Shown here piece after piece: positions 49,723-51,129 of a DNA stretch of 64,000 nt. The notes under the pieces are model-generated. The model ran no database searches, had not been told where the DNA came from, and saw nothing but the letters and a program-made list of their open reading frames with translations. The stretch is from assembly GCA_945876035.1 (NCBI GenBank), contig CAMCMU010000007.1, forward strand, positions 1 to 64,000, given 5' to 3'. Position 1 is the stretch's first letter, and every line of letters begins with the position of its first letter. The DNA is from Schlesneria paludicola DSM 18645. Its GTDB lineage: Bacteria > Planctomycetota > Planctomycetia > Planctomycetales > Planctomycetaceae. Position numbers and translations under genes: made by a program.

Positions 49723-51129
49723 TCACCATTTGGTTGAAGCCGCTCGTTCAAGAGTGAAGACAATCGATCCATTTCGAAAGACGGTCACCGTTCCAGTCGA
49801 TTGGCTCACAGTGATGGCCATCGCCAGTGTGTGCGCCGTAATCGCCGCGGCGGTCTGGTGCCTGGCCCCCAAACCGGAGGGGAGGCCCGGCGGAATAGAC
49901 TTCGGCAACAGGTATGACCCCGCACTCAAGACCGTTCCATCTCCCTGAACGACAAATGCGCCATCAATTAACGCAAATTCCTTCATCGTTTCAGCAAGAC
50001 TGGGGTCCAGGACATTCCGCAGGTTTTTAGAGTAGCCATGAAATGGATTGAGTACCAACTGTTGAACGTGGCGCAAGACATTGCGCGCGTCCCCAAGAAC
50101 AAACATGGTACCGACGGGATGCGCTTCGCGCCCCTCCGCCGCGATCTCAACGGCCAATGATAAAATTCGAAGGACAACCGCGGGCCGAACCACATCGACA
50201 CCGCGTCGATTTTTTTCCGAAAGCATCGCTCGAAAATGAGCCTCGGGTTTTGTAATTGTGATGCTGTCCAGGCGCCGACCATCGGGGCCAGTCACGCAGA
50301 CAACACTGTGCTTCTCGTTCAGCAGTCCCTGCGAGGCCGCTAACAGCAACCCAAGGTTAGAACGATCCATGCGAGAGAGTGTGGCATGCAAACCATTAAA
50401 CGTGTGTGTATCTTCGCGTTTGATCTCAAATTCCTCACTATGTTCCGTGGTCACCAGCAAGAGACGCCCCTTCCAGTTCGACAAGGACTCCCATGGAACA
50501 CTTTCCAAGCGATCCACAGCCAACAACAGAGCCTGAGCTCCCACAGATTCGACCAATTGCATCGCCTGTTTGACCAGAGTCTGCGTCAATCTCGGAATGC
50601 TGGCCGCACGACTAGGCCTTTGATCTGGTTGAAGACCCGCCTTAGCCAGCAACAAGCCATCGAGCGATCGCGTATCCTTTGAATCAATCAACGCTTGACG
50701 AAATTCGGCAAGCTTTAACAACTCCGCTAACGCGGCCAAGACTTCAACGTGGGTTTGCTGCAGCTTGCGACCAATGACCAGCAGCACAATGAGTTGAACA
50801 CTTTGGCCGGAGGGAACTCCGTAATCCACACCGCCGCGACTGCGGCCCATGACAACACGAAAGTCTCCCTCCCAATCGATGAATGCATGGGGAAGAGCGA
50901 AGTCGCTGGCGACCAATGTCTGCGCGGCGGCCTCGCGTTCTTCAATGGCCTCGAGGACTTTATCGGGTAAAATCCCCTCGTCATCCCAGTTGGAGGCGTG
51001 GACCAGTGCGCGAATCGCCGCCACGCGTGTCTTAGCGGACAATTCCACCAGACGTATTGCACTGACTAGTTCGCCCAAGTCCAATGGTGTGTCTCCCGAT
51101 ATCGCGTGGCGACCAGCTTTTTTTGTCAA
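49723..51129 (-). CDS. PTS EIIA - DacZ-like diadenylate cyclase fusion
   Basis: The 468-residue protein joins three parts. Residues 16-165 resemble a PTS EIIA type-2 domain (PtsN-like), with the phosphoacceptor His81 in FALPHAF. Residues 180-310 resemble the pyruvate-kinase C-terminal-like domain found at the start of archaeal DacZ. Residues 325-460 are a DAC (DisA_N) domain with DGA at 389-391 and GLGARHQ at 419-425. DAC domains make cyclic di-AMP from two ATP. The third residue of the classic RHR motif is Gln here. The fusion implies that phosphate-relay status could tune c-di-AMP output; this is inference. The frame opens at TTG 51129; a TTG at 51084 with GGGAG eight bases upstream is the likelier start. 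Confidence 0.85.
   Translation of the reverse strand: MTKKAGRHAISGDTPLDLGELVSAIRLVELSAKTRVAAIRALVHASNWDDEGILPDKVLEAIEEREAAAQTLVASDFALPHAFIDWEGDFRVVMGRSRGGVDYGVPSGQSVQLIVLLVIGRKLQQTHVEVLAALAELLKLAEFRQALIDSKDTRSLDGLLLAKAGLQPDQRPSRAASIPRLTQTLVKQAMQLVESVGAQALLLAVDRLESVPWESLSNWKGRLLLVTTEHSEEFEIKREDTHTFNGLHATLSRMDRSNLGLLLAASQGLLNEKHSVVCVTGPDGRRLDSITITKPEAHFRAMLSEKNRRGVDVVRPAVVLRILSLAVEIAAEGREAHPVGTMFVLGDARNVLRHVQQLVLNPFHGYSKNLRNVLDPSLAETMKEFALIDGAFVVQGDGTVLSAGSYLLPKSIPPGLPSGLGARHQTAAAITAHTLAMAITVSQSTGTVTVFRNGSIVFTLERAASTKW

Follow-up and report, generated by a model that had tools for sequence, protein, structure and literature searches.

An EIIA domain fused to a DacZ-like diadenylate cyclase in Planctomycetaceae: a candidate link between the PTS and c-di-AMP

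Domain architecture at the locus

The window, by which we mean the whole stretch of 64,000 nucleotides that was analysed (contig CAMCMU010000007.1, assembly GCA_945876035.1), carries an open reading frame that encodes three domains on a single chain (Table 1). In the listed protein, Pfam matches were obtained in the order PTS_EIIA_2, DacZ_P and DAC, each above its own cut-off. The PTS_EIIA_2 match spanned residues 29-157 (E 5.8e-15, 56 bits as compared to a cut-off of 27), the DacZ_P match (PF21755) residues 183-293 (E 4.5e-7, 30.0 bits, cut-off 27.4) and the DAC match (PF02457) residues 329-455 (E 3.3e-20, 72.3 bits, cut-off 27). The AlphaFold2 model (pLDDT 80.9, pTM 0.59) matched EIIA-Ntr (1a6j) at residues 17-165 (Z 18.8, rmsd 2.2 over 145) and the C domain of pyruvate kinase (2vgg) at residues 179-295 (Z 14.6, rmsd 2.2 over 115), and a Foldseek search with the model also returned DisA and CdaA. 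The original prediction had placed a PtsN-like domain with His81, a pyruvate kinase C-like (PK-C-like) domain and a DAC domain with DGA and RHQ motifs on this chain, and had proposed profile searches for EIIA and DAC. Both domains were found, all three motifs are carried by the expected codons, and the folds agree. The EIIA - PK-C-like - DAC fusion is real and conserved.

Table 1. Features of the fusion gene, in coordinates of the window
Feature	Position	Strand	Basis
Whole ORF: EIIA - DacZ_P (PK-C-like) - DAC protein	49723..51129	(-)	468 aa as listed; Pfam and AlphaFold2 model
Likelier start codon TTG, codon 16, protein of 453 aa	51082..51084	(-)	GGAG at 51093-51096; homologues
EIIA (PTS_EIIA_2 / EIIA-Ntr fold), residues 17-165	50635..51081	(-)	Pfam and 1a6j match
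His81, expected phosphoacceptor, in ALPH (xPH site)	50887..50889	(-)	His in 66/68 fusion rows, 44/46 representatives
DacZ_P, pyruvate kinase C-terminal-like domain, residues 177-298	50236..50601	(-)	Pfam and 2vgg match
DAC catalytic domain, residues about 316-461	49747..50184	(-)	Pfam; DisA and CdaA matches
DGA catalytic motif, residues 389-391	49957..49965	(-)	D389 and G390 in 46/46 representatives
RHQ motif, residues 423-425, aligned with RHR of CdaA	49855..49863	(-)	R423 and H424 in 46/46 representatives

The protein more likely starts at the TTG at 51084 than at the listed start of the reading frame. A GGAG is located 8 nt upstream of this codon, and both the site and its spacing are common to the three homologues examined (L076, L077 and L079). 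In L079 there is no in-frame start codon before the TTG site.

The order of a PK-C-like domain followed by a DAC domain is that of DacZ (CdaZ) from Haloferax volcanii and planctomycetes, which differs from the fusion in having no EIIA domain. The likeness to DacZ that had been predicted holds for the domain order but not for membership of the curated family, since the fusion scored 122.9 bits against the NCBIfam DacZ equivalog NF041371, below the cut-off of 430. The protein may nevertheless be DacZ-like in its working. Unfused H. volcanii DacZ, with PK-C-like and DAC domains, makes c-di-AMP in vitro, and the dacZ gene is essential, according to the accessible part of PMC6741144, which also states that E. 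coli lacks a DAC protein.

The second DAC motif of the fusion has Gln as its third residue, where Arg or Thr is usual. Among related proteins this residue was Q, A, S, E, W, L, R, T or N. By lineage (L045-L067 and L175-L187), the motif reads RHE in one group of unfused planctomycete proteins, RHW in the majority of the common planctomycete DacZ proteins sampled, RHA in most Opitutia-type fusions and RHQ in the fusion described here. Five verrucomicrobial fusions (L123, L124, L125, L139 and L143) have the third residue of the DGA motif altered, giving DGC, DGG or DGS, which is a possible sign of changed activity.

The phosphoacceptor site and the PTS relay

The conservation of the EIIA site was analyzed in 68 of 69 fusion rows, L192 being dropped as not fused to EIIA. 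These rows include duplicate genes (for example L040/L086, L043/L092, L044/L093 and L097/L117), and the count to use is that of the 46 representatives with less than 90% identity. The position of His81 is occupied by Ser in the two rows that lack His. Among the representatives, P80 and E66 were found in all 46 and R65 in 45, as compared to a median conservation of 0.48 for the EIIA columns. The EIIA part displayed dN values of 0.09-0.14 in five sequence pairs whose synonymous sites had reached or nearly reached saturation, indicating that it is under purifying selection. His127, which we take to be a second active-site His of EIIA-Ntr, was kept in all 13 planctomycete representatives, and Tyr was found at this position in 30 of the 33 verrucomicrobial ones.

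The two proteins with Ser in place of the phosphoacceptor are Opitutia-like fusions (L188 in genome G577 and L189 in genome G603). Their EIIA parts scored just under the Pfam cut-off of 27 bits (23.9 and 26.0 bits), and both proteins retain the DGA and RHA motifs. Since they carry Ser yet keep the architecture, the EIIA domain can persist without a phosphoacceptor. Loss of the PTS wherever the equivalent of His81 is lost was ruled out, as HPr is retained in both genomes.

The genome of the window (4.71 Mb, 102 contigs, 96.85% complete) was searched for the remaining components of the relay, the presence of a PTS phosphotransfer protein being something on which the original prediction depended. 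Such proteins are encoded on contig C27, where the genes for a PtsN-like EIIA, HPr and EI adjoin and are followed by the genes for RNase E/G and L21. HPr retains the GLH site, presumably the site with the relay role, and EI contains three PEP-utiliser domains alone, with no GAF domain. A PtsP gene, which was to be looked for alongside HPr, was not detected in the genome: the second and sole other protein with a PEP-utilizers_C domain is pyruvate phosphate dikinase (PPDK), not an EI of the PtsP type. In PtsP, glutamine and 2-oxoglutarate are sensed by the GAF domain, as stated in the accessible text of PMC13104625. The proposed sensing of nitrogen is thus unsupported, given the domain content of EI and the identity of the second protein, and since EI has no GAF domain the likely input is the PEP supply and not the ratio of glutamine to 2-oxoglutarate.

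No PTS_EIIC permease was detected in any of the 12 genomes searched, including that of the window, whereas the same search was positive in 7 of 14 known control genomes. Because EI and HPr are present and no PTS_EIIC was detected, the relay looks regulatory, as opposed to serving sugar uptake through the PTS_EIIC family. All 12 planctomycete genomes searched for EIIA_2 have at least one further copy of it in the relay, and the six without a fusion carry one or two free ones. The third EIIA of the genome is found on contig C3 (L075:6621-7343), in a protein of 241 residues that combines a helix-turn-helix domain (HTH_17) with EIIA and that, from these domains, is likely to be a PTS-controlled DNA-binding protein. 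In the EIIA tree it clusters with EIIA proteins of comparable length from relatives.

The fusion is the sole DAC protein detected in its genome. With no other DAC detected, it is the likely source of c-di-AMP.

Distribution, neighbourhood and origin of the fusion

The closest named relatives of the fusion are from Schlesneria MAGs, with up to 90% identity; the genus belongs to the Planctomycetaceae. Matches were obtained in 146 of the 148 sampled genomes of the class, and no match in two. Among the matches listed, full-length fusions were found in seven genomes, all of the family to which the window belongs, and in another 122 genomes the match does not begin before residue 143 and so leaves out EIIA, with the proviso that a distant EIIA could count as a separate piece in these 122 genomes, as it does in G587. 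The other 17 genomes are known by their best E-value alone (>3.8e-34), which completes the count (7 + 122 + 17 + 2 = 148). One of the seven fusion genomes (G266) has an additional, separate DacZ-like gene.

A scan of named genomes yielded 29 loci, five of them from MAGs of Opitutia or Opitutales that encode all three domains in this arrangement at 28-30% identity; further comparisons of the fusion of the window with Opitutia proteins gave 27-28%. With an Opitutia query, full-length matches with E <1e-98 were obtained in 32 of 194 Verrucomicrobiota genomes. Another three genomes (G432, G463 and G587) gave weaker matches yet encode fusions, with Pfam EIIA and DAC in all three, so that the total is 35 of 194. 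The suggestion that similar proteins occur in planctomycetes, to be followed by a survey of EIIA-DAC fusions, is thus borne out and extends to a second phylum. In an alignment across the two phyla (A2), EIIA and DAC were present in all 17 fusions and DacZ_P in 16 of them (E <= 0.001), L190 being the one without it.

Eight verrucomicrobial genomes were searched for further EIIA domains. In two of these (G421 and G586) the fusion was the only EIIA_2 found, although a second EIIA may have been missed as both assemblies are fragmented; the other six carry one or two more. EI and HPr are retained in G421. Co-occurrence of the fusion with HPr was considered as support and found to be uninformative, since HPr is nearly universal, being present in 147 of 148 genomes of the class and in 193 of 194 Verrucomicrobiota genomes.

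DAC domains were detected in 271 of 294 genomes of the phylum. Outside the class of the window, most of the sampled genomes encode a DAC protein that scored near E 1e-40 (Pfam), is often 270-300 amino acids long and is CdaA-like by size and score, whereas the scores of the 21 class members in this search were mostly near 1e-22. This difference in scores suggests that the class has changed from one type of synthase to another. Two DacZ-like matches are listed for a number of genomes with the family code f93; one of the two is closer to the fusion (about 36-42% identity) and the other has lower scores, so that these genomes probably encode two paralogous c-di-AMP synthases.

A conserved gene neighbourhood was rejected, as all seven planctomycete loci had nothing in common but the fusion gene and the frames that overlap it. 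Two of the genomes (G283 and G354) are close relatives and have many frames in common. A member of the DUF1501 family was located within about 5 kb of the fusion in four of the seven loci, and this proximity is taken as chance because the family is abundant in planctomycetes. In one locus (L095:2896-7341) the fusion gene lies on the same strand behind the genes for an EIIA-carrying HCO3 transporter and a universal stress protein; the gene order suggests a possible ion-homeostasis operon.

The origin of the fusion was analyzed with trees of the DacZ and EIIA parts. The first version of the DacZ tree comprised 82 rows, after 24 similar rows, the window's own copy (L038) and the partial L090 had been dropped; for the second version, with 59 rows, the archaeal L102 and L103, L183, L121, L182 and 18 others were removed. 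The EIIA tree was built from 34 of the 68 fusions together with 25 further EIIA domains, and long branches were flagged by the programs in both the DacZ and the EIIA trees. The DacZ tree placed the fusions from planctomycetes (100/99) and those of the Opitutia type (100/100) in separate clades, and the latter joined unfused planctomycete proteins (PLunfB) and L192 at 98/97. A single clade of all fusions was not rejected (p-AU 0.213), and a clade of the planctomycete and Opitutia fusions alone was borderline (p-AU 0.0408). In the EIIA tree, the verrucomicrobial L190 joined the planctomycete fusions (97/80); here too, a single fusion clade was not rejected, either with all fusions (p-AU 0.259) or without the three other fusions (0.342). 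There was no support for the idea that the fused EIIA derives from the resident PtsN, as the planctomycete PtsN-like rows formed a clade of their own (100/99). The trees suggest that the fusion may have arisen more than once.

Possible control of c-di-AMP synthesis by the relay

We lean towards the interpretation that the fusion is a soluble DacZ-like c-di-AMP synthase whose output depends on the phosphorylation of its EIIA domain by P~HPr, and hence on the PEP supply. PEP would phosphorylate EI, which would phosphorylate HPr, which in turn would phosphorylate His81. The phosphorylation state of His81 would reach the DAC domain by way of the PK-C-like domain. The DAC domain would have to pair with a second copy in order to join two ATP into c-di-AMP, and the cellular PEP supply would thereby set the c-di-AMP level. 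We infer the cyclase activity, the phosphorylation by HPr and its effect on the cyclase, and the retention of His in 44 of the 46 representatives supports control of the cyclase by the relay. Potassium or carbon status may be the input, in line with two of the signals originally proposed. In other bacteria, potassium uptake is restrained both by unphosphorylated EIIA-Ntr and by c-di-AMP; for this reason we guess, at little better than even odds, that the unphosphorylated form would be the active one.

Three other explanations were weighed. The EIIA-fold domain could be a phosphorylation-independent sensor or docking module, in which the His is kept for folding or ligand binding. Such a module is presumably found in band 3 type transporters, whose cytoplasmic domain is EIIA-like, and the match between human BTR1 and the EIIA part of the model (Z 14.8, rmsd 3.0 over 146), the whole architecture of the two Ser-for-His proteins and the HCO3 transporter with a fused EIIA near the cyclase gene in L095 all point in this direction. 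We nevertheless regard it as unlikely, since few EIIA columns are as well conserved as those of P80, H81, R65 and E66, and since the genome encodes the relay enzymes but yielded no PTS_EIIC permease. More improbable is that EIIA acts outward, as a sink for PTS phosphate or a regulator of other proteins, with a cyclase that is constitutive or set by a metabolite on the PK-C-like domain. The clear match to the PK-C fold and the retention of this domain in EIIA-less relatives (L187) are consistent with such a site, and the accessible part of PMC6741144 describes the fold as an allosteric ligand site in pyruvate kinase and as a proposed regulatory element in DacZ. An outward role, however, leaves unexplained why EIIA has stayed on the cyclase chain in two phyla.

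The remaining explanation is that the DAC domain is inactive or weak, because the RHR/RHT motif ends in Gln here and in Ala in most Opitutia-type fusions. The invariance of D389, G390, R423 and H424 among the representatives, the variability of this third residue across related proteins and the lack of a further DAC in the genome argue against it, and we consider it highly improbable.

A phosphate relay of the PTS that sets a nucleotide messenger has parallels. In E. coli, EIIA-Glc acts on adenylate cyclase. In both this case and that of Caulobacter, EIIA is a separate protein that acts on a different enzyme, whereas the EIIA domain described here is part of the c-di-AMP synthase itself. In Caulobacter the PTS-Ntr is linked to (p)ppGpp, according to the accessible part of PMC4848567. 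The fused domain resembles the EIIA-Ntr (PtsN) of the PTS-Ntr in its fold, its His site and a relay without a detected EIIC permease, but differs in its attachment to a cyclase, in an EI without GAF and in the position of the fused EIIA domains outside the planctomycete PtsN-like clade.

The DacD class of diadenylate cyclases, reportedly defined by Corrigan and Grundling in 2013, is probably the one that bears EIIA N-terminal to DAC, a feature that the protein of the window has. The accessible part of PMC6741144 lists five DacD representatives, all verrucomicrobial by name: Lacunisphaera limnophila, Puniceicoccaceae bacterium, Coraliomargarita, Verrucomicrobia bacterium and Opitutae bacterium. 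Lacunisphaera and Coraliomargarita belong to the class Opitutia, in which the fusions found here join EIIA, DacZ_P and DAC on one chain. Since Opitutia supplies DacD cyclases and such fusions occur there, the EIIA-DAC architecture has probably already been catalogued for this class. The original statement that there is no well-described example is weakened to this extent. No biochemical description of an EIIA-DAC fusion was found in the open-licence literature, where, among the matches listed, no paper had such a protein in its title or the start of its abstract. Term searches in the accessible text likewise returned no EIIA in PMC5575661, PMC7288161 and PMC9465037 and no c-di-AMP in PMC13104625. 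The protein of the window differs from its Opitutia counterparts in having RHQ instead of RHA and in keeping His127. Results of the present analysis are the branch in the Planctomycetaceae, conservation at the relay site, a setting in which no PTS_EIIC was detected and the natural Ser variants.

A broader interpretation, to which we give somewhat less than even credence, is that in two PVC phyla a permease-free PTS feeds directly into c-di-AMP synthesis. The cyclase itself would be covalently phosphorylated, and the PEP supply would in this way be recorded in the potassium and osmotic messenger. Some Opitutia-like genomes would have no EIIA_2 besides this cyclase, and the fusion may have had more than one origin. 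If so, the whole PTS of the genomes with the fusion as their sole EIIA_2 would represent a dedicated pathway from metabolism to c-di-AMP. To our knowledge, the inputs so far described for c-di-AMP synthases are mostly protein partners. With a phosphoacceptor domain on the synthase itself, it becomes testable whether PEP-dependent phosphorylation sets c-di-AMP, which would parallel, for this messenger, the connection of EIIA-Glc to cAMP in E. coli. The natural His-to-Ser proteins of G577 and G603 offer ready-made comparisons. Both groups include a named species, Lacunisphaera limnophila and Schlesneria paludicola DSM 18645, and both of these are cultured.
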